A stretch of DNA of 64,000 nucleotides, taken from Streptomyces sp. TLI_105. Its GTDB lineage: Bacteria > Actinomycetota > Actinomycetes > Streptomycetales > Streptomycetaceae. Each line of letters opens with the position of its first letter. Within the stretch, counting starts at the first letter, position 1. Under the pieces are notes generated by a model that did no database searches, had not been told where the DNA came from, and was given only the letters and a program-made list of their open reading frames with translations. Made by a program: the position numbers and the translations under genes. The stretch is from the NCBI RefSeq assembly GCF_900105415.1, contig NZ_FNSM01000001.1:5233501-5297500 (forward strand). Direction: 5' to 3'. Below, one piece after another: positions 3,624-14,258 of the stretch.

Positions 3624-3980
3624 TCAGTCCTCCGTCGGCTGTCCGTTCGTCCGGATCAGGTCACGGCCGAACTCGATCATCTTCCGGGCGTAGTCCTCGG
3701 TCCACGCCGCCCGCTCGGCGACGTCCGCCGCCGTCAGCCGGTCGAACCGGCGCGGATCCGCCAGCTGCGCGGCCGCGATCGCCTGGAACTCGGTCGCCCG
3801 GTCCGTCGCCGCCCGGAACGCGAGCGTCAGCTCCGTCGCCCGGGACAGCAGCTCGCGGGGGTCCTCTATCGACTCCAGATCGAAGAAGTGCTCCGGGTCG
3901 GCGGTCGCCTCGGCAGGCTCGAAGATCAGCGGTGCCGGCCGAAGCCGCCGCTGTGTGCTCCGCTCCGCGGGTTCCGCCAT
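3624..3980 (-). CDS. Conserved hypothetical protein, 118 aa
   Basis: The ATG at 3978-3980 follows a strong ribosome binding site (GGAGGAGAAGG). It is a small acidic, helix-rich soluble protein. The middle (DPRELLSRATELTLAFRAAT) and end (EDYARKMIEFGRDLIRTN) look like amphipathic helices. No known motif, signal peptide or membrane segment is recognised. It is transcribed in the same direction as the helicase gene 137 bp upstream, so it could be the last gene of that operon. Confidence 0.65.
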   Translation of the reverse strand: MAEPAERSTQRRLRPAPLIFEPAEATADPEHFFDLESIEDPRELLSRATELTLAFRAATDRATEFQAIAAAQLADPRRFDRLTAADVAERAAWTEDYARKMIEFGRDLIRTNGQPTED

Positions 3981-4117: not shown

Positions 4118-5449
4118 TCAGGGAGTCCAGGTCACCCGGTGTTCCTCGAGGTGGGAGAGGACCGCGTGGTTCGCCTCCCAGCCGTCGGGGAACGAGACCG
4201 CGACCCCCAGCCGCACCGGATCCGTCGACGGGTGCTCGTCGAGGAGCTCCGCCACGCCCGCCCGGCACACCACGACGCACGCGTGCCGGTGCCGGGAGGC
4301 CAGCACGCACAGCCGGCCCGTCTCCAGGTGGAAGGCGGTCGCGTCCGGGCGGCCCGACAGCGGATGGAGGACCACCGTCACGTCGTACTCACGGCCCTGG
4401 AGCCGGTTCGCCGTGTCCACCGTCACGCCCGTCACACCGAGGTCCGCGAGCGCCGCCCGGACCGCCGCCGCCTGGTCGCGGTGGGCGGTGCCGACGGCGA
4501 TCCGGTCCGGGGTGAGCGGCACCGGGATCTCGGAGCGCTCCGAGACCGCCGCGCCGCCCCGGTCCAGGAGCCGACGCACGAGCAGGGCGATCGCGCCGAC
4601 CGCCTCGGGGTCGGTGCGGGGGGTGTGCCGGGCCGGGAGTTCGAGCAGGCCCCAGCCGGACTCGGCGGCCTCGTCGAGGACCCGGTCGGGACCGGAACCG
4701 TCCGAGGGAACCCCGAAGGAGAGCCTCCGGTCCCCGTGCCCGGTGCCGCTGCGGAACGGCGTGTACGGGTAGAAGGCGTCCGACACCAGCGGCGCCGCCG
4801 TGGCCGGCAGCCGCCAGGAGACCGGCAGCCGGTGCTGCGGCAGCTCCGGGTTGTGCGCGAGCAGCGTGGAGACGGCGCTCGCCGAGGGGTCGTACGTGAG
4901 CCCCGCCCACTGCTCCGCGCCCACCACCGAGAACGGGTCGAGCTGCCCGGGGTCGCCCACGAACAGCGCCCGCTCGAAGAGCCCCGCCACGGCGAGCAGC
5001 GCGTCCGAGCGCATCTGGTACGCCTCGTCGACGATCGCGTGCGCCCACGGCTCGACGTTCTTCACGTGCCCCCACTTGGCGGCCGTGGACAGGACGACCG
5101 GCAGCCCGGTCAGCTCGCCCGCCTTCGCCGACTTCCGTACGTTGGCCAGGTCGTCGAGCGCCTTGTCGTACGGGTCGGAGTCGTTCGAGTGCAGCCGGCC
5201 GACCTCCAGGTCCGGCTCCTTCTCCGCGAGCCGCAGCACCAGGTCGTCCACCTGCGCGTTCGTCTGGGCGACCACCATCAGGGGGCGCCCGGCGGCGGCC
5301 AGCTCCAGGGCGGCGCGGACCACGAGCGTCGACTTGCCGGCACCCGGCGGGGAGTCGACGACGACGCCCCGCGCGGTGCCGTGCAGGGTGTCCGCCAGGA
5401 TGGCGGAGGTCGCGCGGGCGGCCTCGGCGGACGGGTCGAACACGGTCAC
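4118..5449 (-). CDS. Small superfamily 1 (Upf1/Dna2-like) helicase
   Basis: Predicted ATP-dependent nucleic-acid helicase, 443 residues. Motifs in order: Walker A PPGAGKST (34-41), motif Ia AQTNAQVDDL (61-70), Walker B with DEAYQM (141-146), motif III GDPGQLDPF (165-173), and late motifs VDTANRLQGREYD and LASRHRHA. It is much shorter than UvrD or RecB because the large insertion subdomains are missing, fitting the AAA_11/AAA_12 (SF1B) type. It starts with GTG at 5447-5449. It is the third gene of a minus-strand set after an Fe-S RecB-like nuclease and an unknown protein, which suggests joint DNA processing. The 5' end overlaps a 38-bp tandem repeat. The in vivo role is unknown. Confidence 0.85.
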   Translation of the reverse strand: MTVFDPSAEAARATSAILADTLHGTARGVVVDSPPGAGKSTLVVRAALELAAAGRPLMVVAQTNAQVDDLVLRLAEKEPDLEVGRLHSNDSDPYDKALDDLANVRKSAKAGELTGLPVVLSTAAKWGHVKNVEPWAHAIVDEAYQMRSDALLAVAGLFERALFVGDPGQLDPFSVVGAEQWAGLTYDPSASAVSTLLAHNPELPQHRLPVSWRLPATAAPLVSDAFYPYTPFRSGTGHGDRRLSFGVPSDGSGPDRVLDEAAESGWGLLELPARHTPRTDPEAVGAIALLVRRLLDRGGAAVSERSEIPVPLTPDRIAVGTAHRDQAAAVRAALADLGVTGVTVDTANRLQGREYDVTVVLHPLSGRPDATAFHLETGRLCVLASRHRHACVVVCRAGVAELLDEHPSTDPVRLGVAVSFPDGWEANHAVLSHLEEHRVTWTP

Positions 5450-5557
5450 GGCAGGTCCTCGGGGATCACGGCGTCGGGCAGGGTCACGGCAGGTCCTCGG
5501 CGGTCACGGCGTCGGACGGAGTCACAGCACGTCATCGGGGGTCACGGCGTCGGGCAG
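5444..5557. repeat. Three tandem 38-bp repeats between two operon genes
   Basis: Units start at 5444, 5482 and 5520 (period 38). The third unit encodes the last residues and stop codon of the upstream gene (stop at 5522-5524), and the first runs into the start codon of the helicase gene. The period is not a multiple of three, so the copies do not extend the reading frame. Confidence 0.85.
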
Positions 5558-7111
5558 TTCCACGGCGTCCGTCCGGGGCGGGCCGCCGTGTGTCCAGGGT
5601 GTCTCCCCCGGGTCCGGCAGCTTCGGCCCGACCCGCTGGTCGTGCTCGAACAGCGTCCAGGCGATCCGCTCGCCCTTCTCCGGCACGGAGCCCTCCGCGG
5701 GCTCCTTGGACCGGCCCATACGGTCCAGGATCCGCAGGAGCAGCGAGCCGTCCTCCTCGTACCGCACGAACTCCGCCGCCTGCGGCTTGCCGTCCAGCGA
5801 GCGGTACACCCTCGCCTTCTCGCCCAGGTGCGGCCGGTCGTCCGTGCGGACCGTGACGAGCGGGCGCGGCGCGGGCCGCTTCGACTCCGTCCACGCCATC
5901 GTCACCTCGACCACCTCGGCCGAGAACGCCTCGCCCGCGAGCCGCCGCCCCGCCAGGACCAGCGGGTCGTCCAGGGCCTCCTGCGCCTCCAGCTGGCCCT
6001 GCGCCTGCTCGCGGGCGGCGAGCTTCGAGGCCGCCGTCACGGCGTCGTCCCGGCGCGGCTGCGGCGGCTCGCCGGCCGCGACCCGGTCCCGGTGGCCGGT
6101 GAAGGACCAGCGGTCGCGGGTCCAGCGGTCCTCGACCCTGGTGCCCTCCGGCAGATCCCGCAGCAGCTCGACCGCCCGCCAGACCGCGTCCCAGGTCGGC
6201 TTCAGCTGCGAGGCGATCAGCCGGCGCAGCTCCCGCTCGGCCCCGTGCAGCTCGGCGAGGCCCGTGTCGGCGCTCTCGCCGTCCTCGGCCGCGCCGAGCG
6301 CCTGCCGGGCCCGGTCGTACCGCTCGATCGCCGGCGCGAGGAGCTTGTTGTCGAAGGCCGGGTCGGTCGCGGGCCCGGCGGGCGGGCACAGCAGCTGCCC
6401 CTGGGCGTCCCGGCCGACCTCGGCCCGCAGCGCCCCCTCCGGGCCGGACTCCCCGTCCCGCGGGTCGATCCAGGCGAGCAGCGCGCCCAGGTGCTGGTCC
6501 TCCAGGGACGACTGGCCGGTCGCCCAGTGCCGGTTGAGCAGGTCCGTCGCCGCGAGGAGCAGCGAGGAGCCGGGCACCCGGGCCCGCTCGCCGAAGTGCG
6601 TCAGCCACCGGCCGAGCAGCGGCACCCGCGGCGGCGCCGGGAACGGCGTCTCCGGGTCCTGCTCGGCCGTCCGCCGGAACCGCGTCGACCGCCCGAGCAG
6701 CCGCACGTACTCGATGCCCGCCCGGCTCGGCACGATCAGCTGCGGCGCGTCGGCGCACAGCTCGACCTCGACCTTCACCTTCTTCCCGGTCTCCGGGTCG
6801 ACCTCGTTCCTCTCCGCCGCCTCGACGACGTCCGTGAACGAGTCGACGTACGGCAGGATCTCCTCGGCCAGGTCCGCGAGGAACGCGAACCGCAGGTCAC
6901 GGTCCCGGGGTTGCGGCACCACCAGGAGCCGCGGCTCCTCCGGATCGGTGCCGACCAGAGCGCCCAGCGGGGCGCCCGCCTCACCGGCCGTCGTCAGCGG
7001 CACCAGGACCAACGGCCGCGCGGACAGCCGTCGGTGCCGGACCGTGGCGAGCGGCTGCGCCCGCCCCGACTCGACGGCCTCCATCCGGGCGAGCGTCGAG
7101 ATCAGCGACAT
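5522..7111 (-). CDS. Uncharacterised protein between nuclease and helicase genes
   Basis: A 529-residue protein of unknown function. The ATG at 7109-7111 overlaps the end of the nuclease gene by 10 nt, so translation is probably coupled. No signal peptide, membrane segment or catalytic motif is recognised. The N-terminal region (about 20-130) looks globular and beta-rich (RPLVLVPL, RLLVVPQP). The middle is charged and helical with possible coiled coil, and the C-terminal region resembles a small beta domain (KARVYRSLDG, GSLLLRILDRMG). Its fixed place between a nuclease and a helicase suggests a structural or DNA-binding subunit of the same complex; that is inference from position only. Confidence 0.75.
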   Translation of the reverse strand: MSLISTLARMEAVESGRAQPLATVRHRRLSARPLVLVPLTTAGEAGAPLGALVGTDPEEPRLLVVPQPRDRDLRFAFLADLAEEILPYVDSFTDVVEAAERNEVDPETGKKVKVEVELCADAPQLIVPSRAGIEYVRLLGRSTRFRRTAEQDPETPFPAPPRVPLLGRWLTHFGERARVPGSSLLLAATDLLNRHWATGQSSLEDQHLGALLAWIDPRDGESGPEGALRAEVGRDAQGQLLCPPAGPATDPAFDNKLLAPAIERYDRARQALGAAEDGESADTGLAELHGAERELRRLIASQLKPTWDAVWRAVELLRDLPEGTRVEDRWTRDRWSFTGHRDRVAAGEPPQPRRDDAVTAASKLAAREQAQGQLEAQEALDDPLVLAGRRLAGEAFSAEVVEVTMAWTESKRPAPRPLVTVRTDDRPHLGEKARVYRSLDGKPQAAEFVRYEEDGSLLLRILDRMGRSKEPAEGSVPEKGERIAWTLFEHDQRVGPKLPDPGETPWTHGGPPRTDAVELPDAVTPDDVL

Positions 7112-8256
7112 GCCGCCACCCCCGCCAGGGCCTCGTCGCGCAGCGCCCGCGCCCGGCGCAGCGCCGCCACCGCCGGGTCCTCCGGGTCGCCGGCCTCGCC
7201 GCGCGCCGCCGCCAGGACCGCGCCGACCGTCGTCAGGCCGCCCAACTCCCCCCGTACGGAACGGCCCAGGGTCTCCACCGCGCCCGCCTCCCGGGAGCGC
7301 GCCCGGCAGTGGAAGGCCAGCTCGCAGGCGGCCAGGCACTCCGGCGCGTACTGATGGGGGACGCACTCCACGGCCGCCGTCAGCTCCTCCGCCGTCCGCT
7401 CCACCACGTCGAAGCTGATGCCCTCCGGCAGGGCCCGCGCGATCTCGTCGATCCGGGTCAGCCGGGCCAGCTGACGCCGGGTCACCGACCGCTGCTTGCG
7501 CACGTCGACCACCGACGCCGTCGGCACGTTCGAGAAGTCCTTCGGGCAGACGAGGAGCACCGACTGCGCGACCCGCGCGCCCTCCGTACGGGCCGCCACC
7601 CGATCCAGGGCCAGCACGTACACGGCGGCCTGGCGGGCCGCCGCGCCCACCTTCGCCGCGTCGGCCGAACCGTCGATCATCGGGAACGACTTGATCTCCA
7701 CCACCGTCCAGCCGCCGTCGGGGTGCACCACCACCGCGTCCGGCTCCAGATAGACGGGGGAACCGGCGACCTCCAGGGCGAGCAGCGGATGGTCGAGCAG
7801 CGCCCAGGCTCCGGCAGCGGTCGCCTCCCGCAGGGCGAGCGCCGTGCGCGCCACCCGCCCCTCGGGCCCGGCGGCGGCCAGGTCGGGCACGGACACCTCG
7901 CCCGGCTCCTCCACGCCGATCAGGCGCAGCAGTTCGCGCCCGCCGTCCGCCTTGACCTTCGCCTCGAAGGAGTTGCCCCGCACGATCGCGAACTGCGACT
8001 GCCCGAACGGCGCGGGCGAGCCGAGCTTCGCGGCCAGCGCCGACTTGTCGACGCCGGCGCCGTCGAGGATGGCCCGCCGACGGCAGCCCGGATTGGCCGC
8101 GAGCGCCGCGAGGGCCCGCGCGTCCATCGGACGCGGCACGACGCCCGGTCCACGCAGCTCAGCGAGTTGCTGCCTGCTGGTCGTCTGCGGTGTTCGGGAC
8201 AGACCGCTGTCCAGGGATGCGCTCACCCGTGGAAGTCTCGCATCCGCCACTGACAA
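7102..8256 (-). CDS. RecB/Cas4-like PD-(D/E)XK nuclease with probable 4Fe-4S cluster
   Basis: Predicted DNA exonuclease. Counting from the TTG at 8254-8256, visible motifs are E98 (NSFEAK), D173 (EPD), E187-I-K189 and the RecB-type QxxxY (Q209, Y213). This is the full active-site set of Cas4, Dna2 and RecB nucleases. One cysteine (C58, PGCRR) precedes the nuclease fold and four follow it (C298, C307, C311, C317), matching the split cysteine pattern that holds a 4Fe-4S cluster in Dna2, AddB and Cas4. The start is uncertain: an in-frame GTG at 8224-8226 is also possible and neither has a clear ribosome binding site. It is the first gene of the nuclease/unknown/helicase set. Confidence 0.8.
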   Translation of the reverse strand: MSVADARLPRVSASLDSGLSRTPQTTSRQQLAELRGPGVVPRPMDARALAALAANPGCRRRAILDGAGVDKSALAAKLGSPAPFGQSQFAIVRGNSFEAKVKADGGRELLRLIGVEEPGEVSVPDLAAAGPEGRVARTALALREATAAGAWALLDHPLLALEVAGSPVYLEPDAVVVHPDGGWTVVEIKSFPMIDGSADAAKVGAAARQAAVYVLALDRVAARTEGARVAQSVLLVCPKDFSNVPTASVVDVRKQRSVTRRQLARLTRIDEIARALPEGISFDVVERTAEELTAAVECVPHQYAPECLAACELAFHCRARSREAGAVETLGRSVRGELGGLTTVGAVLAAARGEAGDPEDPAVAALRRARALRDEALAGVAACR

Positions 8257-8998
8257 CCGGGGGCGCTTCCGCCCTCCCGCCGATCCGGTCGGCGAGCCGC
8301 AGCGCGTACGGGGCGAGCAGCAGACCCGCGCCCATCACGGCCGCCCCGGCGACCGCGTCGAGCAGGTAGTGGTTGGCGGTGCCCATCACGACAAGGGCCG
8401 TGACCAGCGGGTACGCCACCCCGAGGGCCTTCGTGAGCGGCGTCCGCCCGTACCGCCACAGCATCACCCCGCACCACAGCGCCCAGCCGACGTGCAGGCT
8501 GGGCATCGCCGCGTACTGGTTCGTCAGACCGCCGAGCCCGCGCGGTGCGCTGGCCTCGCCGCCCCACCAGCCGTACGCGCTGAAGTGCGCCATCGTGTCC
8601 GTGAAGCCGTGGGCCGCGTCGAGGAGCCGGGGCGGGCAGGTCGGCAGCAGCGTGAAGCCGACGAGGCCGAGCAGGGTGGAGAGCATCAGCCAGGTGCGCG
8701 CGGCCCGGTAGTGCGCGGGGCGGCGGCGGAAGAGCCACACCAGGACCGCCGGGGTCACCAGGTAGTGCAGCGAGGCGTACGCGAAGTCCGCCGGGACCCC
8801 GAGCGCGGGGACGTCCGTGAACAGCCGGTTCAACGGGTGCTCGGCGTCGATCCCGAGACCCTCCTCGAACCGCAGGACCGCGAGCCCGTGCGCCGTGGCC
8901 GAGGCCTCGTCGCCCTTCACCAGGAGCCGCCCGCCCGAGTAGGCCGCGTACACGACGGCGATCAGGGACAGCTCCGCCCACCAGCGTGGCTTGCGCAT
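8159..8998 (-). CDS. PAP2-superfamily membrane phosphatase or phosphotransferase
   Basis: A 279-residue polytopic membrane protein starting at the ATG 8996-8998 (GGGGGA upstream). It has about six hydrophobic segments. The PAP2-type catalytic pieces are visible: PSLHVGW with the first histidine, and NHYLLDAVAG with the second His and an Asp. The layout resembles the Aur1/inositol-phosphorylceramide-synthase-like branch, which acts on lipid phosphates at the outer membrane face. The substrate cannot be told from sequence. The 3' end overlaps the nuclease gene by up to 98 nt (if that gene starts at 8256), so they may be co-transcribed. Confidence 0.85.
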   Translation of the reverse strand: MRKPRWWAELSLIAVVYAAYSGGRLLVKGDEASATAHGLAVLRFEEGLGIDAEHPLNRLFTDVPALGVPADFAYASLHYLVTPAVLVWLFRRRPAHYRAARTWLMLSTLLGLVGFTLLPTCPPRLLDAAHGFTDTMAHFSAYGWWGGEASAPRGLGGLTNQYAAMPSLHVGWALWCGVMLWRYGRTPLTKALGVAYPLVTALVVMGTANHYLLDAVAGAAVMGAGLLLAPYALRLADRIGGRAEAPPVVSGGCETSTGERIPGQRSVPNTADDQQAATR

Positions 8999-11439: not shown

Positions 11440-11937
11440 ATGACGGAGATCGGTTCGCAGGCGGCCACGCGGCACGTGTCCACCCCGGAGGCCGCACACC
11501 ACGTACCCGCCCCGGACGTCACACGTCACGCCCCCGCGCCGGAGGCCGACGGGCCCCGGCCCGTCGCCGGACCCTGGGACCTGGTGACCGTCCCGGTCCG
11601 CCAGGGCCTGGAGGCCGTGGACATCCTGCGCCGCGCCGCCGCCCCCGCCGTCGGACCGGTCGTCCACGACGGCGCCTGCGACACCCTCGGCTTCCTGGTG
11701 CCGCCCGGCACCGCCGCCGCCTGGGACCTGCCGGGCAGCGCCTGTACGCGCACCTCGGGGCGGGGCCTGCGCCTCCCCGAGCTGCCGGAGCTCCCCGAAC
11801 CGGCGGGCGACGCGCCCCGCCCCGCCGGCTGGCTGCTGCCCCCGGGCGACACCGACCCCGTCACCGACCCCGCCGTCCTGCGCGAGGCGCTCGGCGAGGC
11901 GGCCCGGCTCATCGAGGCGGCCGACGGCTGCCACTGA
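11440..11937 (+). CDS. Conserved hypothetical protein, 165 aa
   Basis: The ATG at 11440 is preceded by GAGGAGGGG. The N-terminal 45 residues are low-complexity (His/Ala/Pro-rich). The globular part begins near WDLVTVP and includes VDILRRAAAP, GPVVHDGACDTLGFLVPPG and WDLPGSACT, typical of a small streptomycete family without assigned role. No membrane segment or signal peptide is seen. It is divergent from the NsdA-like gene and 44 bp upstream of the methyltransferase gene, so it is probably co-transcribed with it. Confidence 0.65.
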   Translation: MTEIGSQAATRHVSTPEAAHHVPAPDVTRHAPAPEADGPRPVAGPWDLVTVPVRQGLEAVDILRRAAAPAVGPVVHDGACDTLGFLVPPGTAAAWDLPGSACTRTSGRGLRLPELPELPEPAGDAPRPAGWLLPPGDTDPVTDPAVLREALGEAARLIEAADGCH

Positions 11938-11981
11938 GCCGCTGGGGGGTGTCTTGTCGGCCGTGCCCCGATAATGGGGCC

Positions 11982-12848
11982 GTGGCCAGGAACAAACAGC
12001 GGGACCGGGCGGCGGCGGCCGTCCCCGTCGTCGAGACCGTCGACGGCGGCCTCGCCGAACTCATACCCGACCGGGAACGCCCGCGCGGCTGGACGCTGCT
12101 CATCGACGGCGCACCGCAGTCGCACGTCGACCTCGACGACCCGGCCCGCCTCACCTTCGAGTACCAGCGGCGCCTCGGCCACATCGCCGACCTCGCCGCC
12201 CCGCCGAACCGTTCCCTCCAGGCCGTCCACCTCGGCGGCGGCGCCTTCACCCTCGCCCGGTACGTCGCCGCGACCCGGCCCCGCTCCACCCAGCAGATCG
12301 TGGAGCTCGACGCGCCCCTGGTCCAGCTCGTCCGCCGGGAACTGCCCCTCGACGCCGGGGCCCGCATCCGGGTCCGCTCCACCGACGCCCGCGCCGGTCT
12401 CGCCAAGGTCCAGGACGGCTGGGCCGACCTCGTCATCGCCGACGTGTTCAGCGGGGCCCGCACCCCGGCCCACCTGACCAGCACCGAGTTCCTCGCCGAG
12501 GTACGGCGGGTGCTGAGGCCCGGCGGCTTCTACGCGGCGAACCTCGCCGACGGCCCGCCCCTGACCCATCTGCGCGGCCAGATCGCCACCGCCGCCGCCG
12601 TCTTCCCCGAACTGGCGCTCACCGCCGACCCGACGGTCCTGCGCGGCCGCCGCTTCGGCAACGCGGTGCTGCTCGCCTCGGACCGCGAGCTGCCGGTGGC
12701 CGAACTGACCCGCCGGGTCGCCACCGATCCGCACCCGGGGCGCGTGGAGCACGGCCGGGCCCTCGCCGACTTCGCCGGGGGAGCGGCGCCCGTCACCGAC
12801 GCGAGCGCCAAGCCCTCGCCCGTACCCCCGGCGTCCGCCTTCCGCTGA
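11982..12848 (+). CDS. Spermidine-synthase-like methyltransferase-fold protein
   Basis: A 288-residue Rossmann-fold protein. The GTG at 11982 starts VARNKQRDR. The glycine-rich nucleotide loop VHLGGGAFTLARY, the acidic strand end IVELDAPL, and the motif WADLVIADVFSG followed by VRRVLRPGGFYAANLAD match the spermidine synthase/SAM-dependent methyltransferase fold. The usual polyamine-binding residues are not clear, so the enzyme may not make polyamines. No partner MFS domain is fused. Its 3' end is 3 bp from the end of the convergent gene at 12852. Confidence 0.8.
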   Translation: MARNKQRDRAAAAVPVVETVDGGLAELIPDRERPRGWTLLIDGAPQSHVDLDDPARLTFEYQRRLGHIADLAAPPNRSLQAVHLGGGAFTLARYVAATRPRSTQQIVELDAPLVQLVRRELPLDAGARIRVRSTDARAGLAKVQDGWADLVIADVFSGARTPAHLTSTEFLAEVRRVLRPGGFYAANLADGPPLTHLRGQIATAAAVFPELALTADPTVLRGRRFGNAVLLASDRELPVAELTRRVATDPHPGRVEHGRALADFAGGAAPVTDASAKPSPVPPASAFR

Positions 12849-12851
12849 GAC

Positions 12852-13481
12852 TCAGGTCTGCCGGTCGTCGATCTCCACGCGGGGCGCGCTGTCGTGCCAC
12901 ACGCAGAAGACCGACAGCTCGCGGCCGTCCTCGGTGAACGTGACCCGGATCCAGGTCGGCTGCTTCCACACCTGCATCTGCCAGCCGGACGCGGGCGTCG
13001 CCGAGACCAGTTCCGCCGAGGTCTCCCCGAGGTCGAAGGTGACCCGGCCGCCGTCCACGGTGTAGGTCTTCACGCCCGCGCCGGAGCCCGTGCCGGAGTC
13101 CGACCCGGATCCCGTGCCGGAGGCCGGTTCCGAGGTCGGCGCGGCGGGCGTCCGCGTCGTGGGGTCCGGGCGGCGCGAGGGGGTCGCGGACGGGGTGGCC
13201 GGGGGCGTGCGGGCCTCGCTCGGCGTGGACGTCGGGGTGGCGGGCGCGGAGGGCTCGGCGCTCTCGGGCCGCCGGGTGGAGGAGCTCCCCGGGTCGCCCC
13301 CGGAGGCAGCCGTTCCGATGGCGGGGCCGGCCGGGAGGGGCAGTGCGCGGGGCGGGTCGTACACCGTGCCGGACAGCACCGTGTGCACCCCCCACCAGGA
13401 CAGGGTGACCGCCGCGCCGGTGGCGAGCGACCAGGCCAGGGCGTGAACGAGTCCTCTTCGCACCGGGACATAGTGCACCAC
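12852..13481 (-). CDS. Membrane-anchored or secreted protein with Ser/Thr/Pro linker
   Basis: Up to 209 residues. A short basic N-terminus (VRRGLVHAL) precedes one hydrophobic segment (ATGAAVTLSWWGVHTVL), then about 90 residues of Ser/Thr/Pro/Ala low-complexity linker, then a compact C-terminal domain of about 75 residues (VTFDLGETSAELVSA ... WIRVTFTEDGRELSVFCVW) with one Cys. It is probably exported with the C-terminal domain outside the membrane. The start is uncertain: GTG at 13481, 13478 or 13463 are all possible without a strong ribosome binding site. The function is unknown. It is divergent from the response regulator gene. Confidence 0.65.
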   Translation of the reverse strand: MVHYVPVRRGLVHALAWSLATGAAVTLSWWGVHTVLSGTVYDPPRALPLPAGPAIGTAASGGDPGSSSTRRPESAEPSAPATPTSTPSEARTPPATPSATPSRRPDPTTRTPAAPTSEPASGTGSGSDSGTGSGAGVKTYTVDGGRVTFDLGETSAELVSATPASGWQMQVWKQPTWIRVTFTEDGRELSVFCVWHDSAPRVEIDDRQT

Positions 13482-13550
13482 CGGACAAAGGTCCGTACCG
13501 GAGGGTGGACCTTGCTCGCGGCCTCACCCGAATGGCGTACGGTGCCGCCC

Positions 13551-14258
13551 ATGGCAAGTGTGCTCGTGGTCGAGGACGACCAGTTCGTGCGCTCCGCCCT
13601 CATCCGGCAGCTGTCCATGTCTTCTGCGGAATCCCACACCGTACGGAGCGTCGGCACGGCTCTGGAGGCGCTGCGCGAGGTCGCCCATTTCCGCTTCGAC
13701 GTCGTGATCCTGGACCTCGGTCTGCCCGATCTCGACGGGTCCGAGGCGCTCAAGATGCTGCGCGGGATCACCGACGTCCCGGTGATCATCGCGACCGCCC
13801 GGGACGACGAGGCCGAGATCGTACGGCTCCTCCACGCCGGGGCCGACGACTACCTCGTGAAGCCCTTCTCCGTCGACCACCTCTCCGCCCGCATGGCCGC
13901 CGTCCTGCGCCGCTCCCGGGCCGCCGGGGAGCTGCCGCCCTCCCGGGCCCTCCGCGTCGGCGGGCTCACCGTCGACCCGCTGCGCCGTCAGGCGGAGCTC
14001 GACGGGACGCCGTTGGACCTGACCCGGCGCGAGTTCGACCTGCTCGCCTTCCTCGCCGGGCGGCCCGGCGTCGTCGTCCCGCGCAAGGAGCTGCTCGCCG
14101 AGGTCTGGCAGCAGTCGTACGGGGACGACCAGACCATCGACGTCCACCTGTCGTGGCTGCGCCGGAAGTTGGGCGAAACGGCCGCCCGACCCCGCTATCT
14201 GCACACCCTGCGCGGGGTCGGCGTGAAGCTGGAGCCGCCCCGGGAGCCGCAGCCGTGA
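13551..14258 (+). CDS. OmpR/PhoB-family response regulator
   Basis: A 235-residue two-component regulator. The receiver domain has the acidic pair D9/D10, the phosphate acceptor D55 (VILDLGLPD) and K104 (LVKPF). The C-terminal winged helix shows LTRREFDLLAFLA, VPRKELLAEVW and the recognition helix IDVHLSWLRRKLGE. It ends with a 4-bp GTGA overlap with the histidine kinase gene, so the two are translated together. A direct repeat at 15677-15694 upstream of the chitinase gene is a candidate binding site. Signal and regulon are unknown. Confidence 0.95.
   Translation: MASVLVVEDDQFVRSALIRQLSMSSAESHTVRSVGTALEALREVAHFRFDVVILDLGLPDLDGSEALKMLRGITDVPVIIATARDDEAEIVRLLHAGADDYLVKPFSVDHLSARMAAVLRRSRAAGELPPSRALRVGGLTVDPLRRQAELDGTPLDLTRREFDLLAFLAGRPGVVVPRKELLAEVWQQSYGDDQTIDVHLSWLRRKLGETAARPRYLHTLRGVGVKLEPPREPQP

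Follow-up and report, generated by a model that had tools for sequence, protein, structure and literature searches.

A candidate three-gene Dna2-like nuclease-helicase module in Streptomyces and the linkage of its relatives to Wadjet and pPIWI-RE genes

In eukaryotes, Dna2 unites an iron-sulphur (Fe-S) nuclease and a helicase in one polypeptide, and Mre11-Rad50 together with Dna2 makes up the resection set. AddAB, AdnAB and RecBCD likewise couple a RecB-type nuclease to a helicase, their motors being UvrD-like, of superfamily 1A (SF1A) and fused to the nuclease, whilst Wadjet (JetABCD) cleaves plasmids. An excerpt of PMC10482375 places Wadjet in 42% of Actinobacteria genomes versus 7% elsewhere, and pPIWI-RE is presented as a predicted restriction system in an excerpt of PMC3702460. 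Here we analyse three adjacent genes, named NUC, MID and HEL, in a 64,000-nucleotide stretch of the genome of Streptomyces sp. TLI_105 (contig NZ_FNSM01000001.1, positions 5,233,501 to 5,297,500; hereafter the window), a genome with a total of 8.88 Mb. A sequence-only reading of the window had seen in these genes a split Dna2-like module, in separate reading frames where Dna2 is a single chain, and this is supported by sequence, conservation, predicted folds and gene order. We consider it probable, though far from certain, that NUC, MID and HEL together form a single Dna2-like DNA-end resection machine, divided over three genes, which has been recruited to destroy DNA cut by defence systems.

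Three adjacent genes for a nuclease, a middle protein and a helicase

All three reading frames were found on the minus strand, together with the 10-nucleotide overlap of NUC and MID (7102-7111) that the sequence-only reading had described:

7102..8256, minus strand: NUC, predicted Fe-S RecB/Cas4-type PD-(D/E)XK nuclease, 384 codons from TTG (reading frame, motif conservation, AlphaFold2 model)
5522..7111, minus strand: MID, 529-amino-acid middle protein (reading frame, AlphaFold2 fold, residue checks)
4118..5449, minus strand: HEL, compact superfamily 1B (SF1B) Upf1/Dna2-like helicase core, 443 amino acids (reading frame, Pfam, nearest solved sequences)

The complete RecB-type active site claimed for NUC is indeed present (E98, D173, E187-x-K189, Q209-xxx-Y213): it is intact in the window copy and in 8 of 8 rows of the Streptomyces core lineage, and in the rows of lineage W (both lineages are described below) E98, D173, E187 and K189 occur in 48 of 48 and Q209 in 47. 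In case of the proposed cysteines, one N-terminal and four C-terminal, the N-terminal C58 stood but only three of the C-terminal residues did, the additional C-terminal cysteines of the window protein not being conserved; the conserved set thus numbers four, C58 plus C-x3-C-x5-C (C307, C311, C317), and these are present in every aligned row with a letter there. By this cysteine pattern NUC is an Fe-S nuclease, with the iron itself predicted. Column conservation is strong across 27 homologues, and the structural check suggested for the 384-residue protein turned out in favour of a nuclease: the AlphaFold2 model (predicted local distance difference test, pLDDT, 92.8) matches Cas4, Exo5, AddB and Dna2, as well as AddA, AdnA and RecB. 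Against Pfam, only PDDEXK_1 was obtained, below the cut-off (E 0.006). The start of NUC is uncertain, since the 384-codon reading opens at TTG and later starts are possible.

HEL had been taken for a compact SF1 helicase, and its core motifs are of the AAA_11/AAA_12 type, with the Walker A motif at about residues 33-40 and with AAA_11, AAA_12, AAA_30 and Viral_helicase1 all above Pfam cut-offs. Its nearest solved sequences are SMUBP-2 and DNA2, with UPF1 also matched. Its best matches in NCBIfam and PHROGs were the 'PLuB system helicase-like' model (E 6e-15, below cut-off) and phrog_25411 (E 2.5e-16), and PADLOC gave only cross-matches, at E 1.6e-8 or weaker, to larger proteins that contain a helicase part. 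An AddAB-type identity was rejected, the UvrD_C_2 match lying far below cut-off. HEL has no 1B barrel N-terminal to its motor; a 1B-like barrel is predicted in MID instead.

MID, the unrecognised second protein of the sequence-only reading, gave sub-threshold family matches only (best E 0.017) in Pfam, PADLOC, NCBIfam and PHROGs; the same searches returned no known defence system for the trio, and neither NUC nor MID had a PADLOC match. Its columns are strongly conserved across 29 homologues, and its AlphaFold2 model (pLDDT 89.7; predicted template modelling score, pTM, 0.85) is predicted to comprise an RNase H-like exonuclease fold without the D-x-E motif (about residues 31-378) and a second part, a barrel like helicase domain 1B (residues 392-489). 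None of 113 MIDs shows the D-x-E pattern. Going by the model, MID probably serves as a DNA-handling scaffold, contributing the 1B-like barrel and the exonuclease-like fold.

Lineages of the operon and their neighbours

The order NUC-MID-HEL was found in 28 of the 28 loci first examined, a set in which the copy in the window is counted and three places occur twice, and the neighbourhood survey showed it to be conserved outside close relatives, as it is kept far beyond Streptomyces. MID occurs in 377 of 392 Streptomyces genomes and in 14 of 396 genomes across the phylum. On the MID tree a Streptomyces core, to which the window copy belongs, a lineage W and a lineage P each occupy one side of a fully supported branch.

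In lineage W the trio is part of a block, SbcC-SbcD/X-NUC-MID-HEL, represented by 41 loci. This set derives from GTDB representatives scanned with W MIDs (80 kept of 118 relatives), two plasmids and further loci, after deduplication; loci with an incomplete MID (L123, L137, L141) were removed, as were repeat copies of one place, whereas three S. turgidiscabies contigs of identical sequence each enter as a locus. NUC, MID and HEL are present in all 41, SbcC in 39, SbcD in 40 (some as pieces) and X in 40, X being a protein of about 280 amino acids without a family; no credible solved relative by sequence was found for NUC, MID or X. The hosts are Streptomycetaceae, a Catenulispora metagenome-assembled genome, Nocardia, Pseudonocardiaceae, Actinomadura and Streptosporangiaceae. 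In L081 (= L018) and L027, where the trio is intact, all that was found of SbcD is a shortened piece, and some W copies lie near the ends of linear replicons: L175 and L221 at both ends of one chromosome, L103 at a chromosome start and L026 on a linear plasmid.

A Wadjet operon of type I, II or III adjoins 38 of these 41 loci. Wadjet was found by tblastn in 37 (type I.a 14, I.b 6, II 8, III 9), with types assigned mostly from one or two queries per type and hidden Markov model confirmation for examples; the 38th is L082, where a type II JetB (E 3e-239) lies 5.6 kb from HEL. At 25 loci JetA, taken from where its BLAST match begins, follows HEL by 64-452 nucleotides, while in two Nocardia and 8 of the 9 type III loci the Wadjet is on the far side of SbcC. 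JetD was seen in 25 of the 37 and in the other 12 the fetched stretch ends within the Jet genes; for one of the latter (L219) a longer stretch shows JetD3. At L217 the candidate JetD reading frame had no PADLOC match, yet tblastn finds JetD2 there. The three loci in which no Wadjet was seen have as neighbours a UvrD-like gene (L103, 7 kb from the chromosome end), a HamB-like helicase (L108) and HsdM (L112). The pairing has been renewed repeatedly: the bootstrapped MID tree shows at least 10 changes of Wadjet type (35 typed rows; shuffled mean 14.7, minimum 11), a figure that holds for this tree, in which some branches are weak, and the sister loci L091 and L094 differ in type (I.a and II, respectively). 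The pattern is repeated outside W at L152 (type I.b with SbcCD), L144 (type III) and L049 (SbcCD, with JetA2-JetB2 about 2 kb beyond SbcC).

Among 199 Streptomyces genomes, type I JetA exceeds the cut-off in 7 and type II in 73; a type III JetA-like gene, which raises the chance rate for Wadjet linkage, is present in 193, mostly 44-47% identical to the W type among the matches listed. At the resulting JetA density of about 1 per 6 Mb, 0.3% would be expected per 20-kb stretch, compared with the 38 of 41 seen at W loci. The reverse view was taken from 60 other type I/II Wadjet loci, made up of every one of the 8 type I rows (including L229, which is below cut-off) plus 52 of the 91 listed type II rows, some of which are pieces of one gene; the type II rows G443, G022, G596 and G221 were left out, their adjacency to a block being already known. 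The whole block was found at one (L228) and HEL pieces alone at another, a Wadjet I.a locus (L227), where in the fetched stretch they are perhaps a decaying copy. In the Streptomyces sample, both Wadjets of type I.a, which share 76-84% identity with the W type, have the block or a remnant, versus none of five other type I Wadjets (45-52% identity). For type III, only G494 and G541 (94-100% identity) among the matches listed adjoin a second MID, by coordinates. The block nearly always accompanies a Wadjet, and most Wadjets do without the block; Wadjet is thus independent of it. A pPIWI-RE DinG-type gene was seen near a type II Wadjet JetA at L251/L283 and at L257.

Lineage P comprises 14 Streptomyces loci, all with X, NUC, MID and HEL and none with SbcCD. 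Genes of the pPIWI-RE type lie divergent from X in 11 of them, with the PIWI gene itself confirmed in 3 of 3 extended loci; in L166, L170 and L173 no pPIWI-RE gene is in view, L166 being cut by a contig end and having DUF6119 as neighbour. The catalytic residues of NUC are lost in 13 of the 14, and all 14 keep the four cysteines (L161-L174): at E98, D173, E187 and K189 nine read H-D-L-R and four E-Q-E-R, and the sole locus with intact NUC (L173) is basal on the tree. The two decay patterns are two clades, so that decay proceeded separately, perhaps after a common K189R to judge from the residues. The pPIWI-RE island at these loci carries a PDDEXK_1 protein (E 1e-23, a family match only). In many Micromonosporaceae loci (L121-L160, L047), NUC-MID occurs without HEL alongside, and in 8 of 8 such genomes checked HEL is encoded elsewhere (79-86% identity). 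At L116 a GmrSD-like (HEC-05-like) gene (11577-13919) separates MID from HEL, and HsdM-HsdM and HsdR come after it.

In the core lineage the trio order was found in 8 of 8 fetched loci. The window locus has no match to Jet genes and the window genome no type I/II JetA; X was likewise not found in this genome by a search that was positive in 4 of 4 control genomes. The genome does hold a type III-like JetA-JetB-JetC operon at C1:6.857 Mb, 1.6 Mb from the trio (L285:6706-14492), and JetD had no tblastn match at this operon either here or in two other Streptomyces (L285, L286, L287). A phage origin was rejected, with 0 NUC matches in 50,697 phage records and no relative of the MID of lineage W in IMG/VR, where none of 153 pattern matches was confirmed, as was an origin as plasmid genes, MID occurring in 3 of 72,556 plasmid records, of which one is 11.85 Mb long.

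Two further genes flank the trio in the window:

3624..3980, minus strand: 118-amino-acid conserved hypothetical protein, 3' of HEL (neighbourhood of fetched core loci)
8159..8998, minus strand: upstream gene, PAP2-like by eye, context only (reading frame)

Of the 8 core loci fetched, 6 have the 118-amino-acid gene after HEL, whereas no fetched W or P locus has it there, and it is probably a unit separate from the trio; its protein matched no family at a credible E-value in the four collections named above. The 3' end of the PAP2-like gene overlaps the longest NUC reading by 98 nucleotides. Imperfect repeats of about 40 bases were noticed by eye around the MID stop and before HEL (5450-5560), and ARAGORN calls a tRNA-Pro at 13226-13313, inside long overlapping reading frames, which may be false.

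A proposed resection machine and its rivals

In the reading that we favour, HEL would be an SF1B motor without a 1B domain of its own, MID would supply the 1B-like barrel together with an exonuclease-like fold lacking D-x-E, and NUC would be the Fe-S nuclease that trims the unwound strand. The complex, whose formation, polarity and catalysis we infer, would act at DNA ends, unwinding and degrading (resecting) DNA. In the Streptomyces core it would be a chromosomal machine, perhaps for processing chromosome ends or breaks, or else would act in trans; in the accessory lineages the machine plus X (and, in W, SbcCD, that is Mre11-Rad50) would be coupled to the DNA-breaking systems Wadjet I-III and pPIWI-RE, turning a cut plasmid into destroyed DNA. 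The occurrence of SbcCD and Dna2-like pieces beside DNA-cutting plasmid defences suggests that the block processes the ends that those make, in presumed cooperation with JetABCD. A more specific version is tentative, and we lean slightly away from it: a portable 'resection arm' (SbcCD, X and the three-piece Dna2-like nuclease-helicase) would dock onto Wadjet types I-III and, without SbcCD, onto pPIWI-RE, destroying invader DNA after the first cut; on pPIWI-RE, which has its own PD-(D/E)XK protein, the Fe-S nuclease would decay to a non-catalytic structural subunit, and the Streptomyces core arm would coexist with a core type III JetABC-like SMC (structural maintenance of chromosomes) operon seemingly lacking the JetD cutter.

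A number of findings weigh against the resection machine. Defence genes cluster anyway, and linkage alone is no proof of cooperation; the block is missing from 58 of the 60 other loci with a type I/II Wadjet, among them a type II operon (L231) that is 56-66% identical to the W type. Genes of the defence query set adjoin 0 of 8 core loci and do not adjoin the trio in the window, so that the core role in this reading is extrapolated, and MID and the type III JetA are not lost together (of 199 genomes, 12 lack MID, 6 lack this JetA, and two incomplete ones lack both). The degeneration of NUC in 13 of 14 P loci makes catalysis dispensable there. The fold matches of MID are moderate, with no Foldseek E below 0.001 and other proteins in the top rows, and barrels of the ferredoxin-reductase type score as high as 1B against its barrel. 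Comparison with fused proteins of the TIGR03491 family (14 of 16 stretches, L202 and L214 being left out for a missing Walker A pattern) was not significant for the profiles of NUC (best E 0.013, in order) and MID (best E 0.077, for an alignment that is out of order; E 0.17 for the next, which is in order).

That the trio is an ordinary DNA repair enzyme, for double-strand-break resection or flap or chromosome-end processing, with the defence linkage a secondary capture, comes close to an even chance, and as regards the core copy it is compatible with the resection machine. It is favoured by the presence of MID in 377 of 392 Streptomyces genomes, by eight ordered core loci of eight with nothing from the defence query set adjacent and by the many Micromonosporaceae loci that keep NUC-MID with HEL elsewhere, whereas repair alone does not account for the link to pPIWI-RE, for gene X as an extra component or for the recurrent association with three types of Wadjet. 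It seems unlikely that X-NUC-MID-HEL(-SbcCD) is a defence system of its own, for example one directed at Wadjet-resistant DNA, linear or protein-capped, merely sharing islands with Wadjet and pPIWI-RE: the Wadjet beside 38 of 41 W loci, with JetA 64-452 nucleotides after HEL in 25, and the block or remnant at both type I.a Wadjets (76-84%) versus none of five others (45-52%) speak for coupling, even if lineage P and some Micromonosporaceae copies adjoin pPIWI-RE, GmrSD-like and type I restriction-modification genes rather than Wadjet, three W loci without Wadjet adjoin UvrD-like, HamB-like or HsdM genes, and some copies lie near linear replicon ends. Less probable still is that MID is a separate enzyme or scaffold rather than a helicase partner, with NUC and HEL independent and the operon a functional grouping only; the moderate fold matches, partly to common barrels, and the separation of HEL from NUC-MID in some loci would agree with this, but the NUC-MID-HEL order and short overlaps are kept in widely separated genera and HEL lacks the 1B domain present in its nearest relatives.

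If the resection machine is real, a deeply conserved, unannotated Streptomyces operon makes sense as one machine in three genes. Nothing on the fate of the Wadjet-cut plasmid was found in the Wadjet literature, in so far as it is represented by excerpts (PMC10482375 among them), and the linked Mre11-Rad50 and Dna2-like set in more than 30 loci is a concrete, deletable candidate for the step after plasmid cutting. This set parallels eukaryotic end resection by Mre11-Rad50/Dna2 (abstract of PMC4783781), and lineage P offers a natural series for the loss of catalysis by an Fe-S nuclease whose cluster ligands are kept.

Comparison with known systems

The described pPIWI-RE island, the neighbour of lineage P, has three genes (a restriction endonuclease, a DinG helicase and pPIWI-RE), and the excerpt of PMC3702460 does not mention the trio. 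Wadjet is the neighbour of the W lineage, and NUC, MID and HEL match no Jet model. In comparison with AddAB, AdnAB and RecBCD, HEL is of the AAA_11/AAA_12 (Upf1/Dna2) kind and a separate chain. The TIGR03491 (TM0106-type) proteins have what we take to be the same kinds of domain in the same order as the trio (RecB-like nuclease, RNase H-like, helicase), and their helicase part is homologous to HEL (profile against the 14 fused proteins, probability 99.4, E 5e-22). They are, however, fused in a single chain, mostly of about 1,100-1,200 amino acids, where the trio is split over three genes, 11 of the 14 have the D-x-E pattern that 113 of 113 MIDs lack, and the NCBIfam model matched neither NUC nor MID at E up to 1. 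TIGR03491 exceeds the cut-off in 35 of 296 actinobacterial genomes and, among the matches listed, in none of nine Streptomyces. In the open-access literature, we found no paper pairing 'TM0106' with nuclease and helicase and, among the papers listed, no description of a linkage of Wadjet or pPIWI-RE to such a block (subscription journals and preprints being outside this scope). The components are of known kinds; their division over three genes, and the way in which the block is found again and again with pPIWI-RE and with three types of Wadjet, seem not to have been described before. Set against Dna2 itself, MID adds a predicted exonuclease-like fold, and sister copies of the trio adjoin Wadjet or pPIWI-RE genes.
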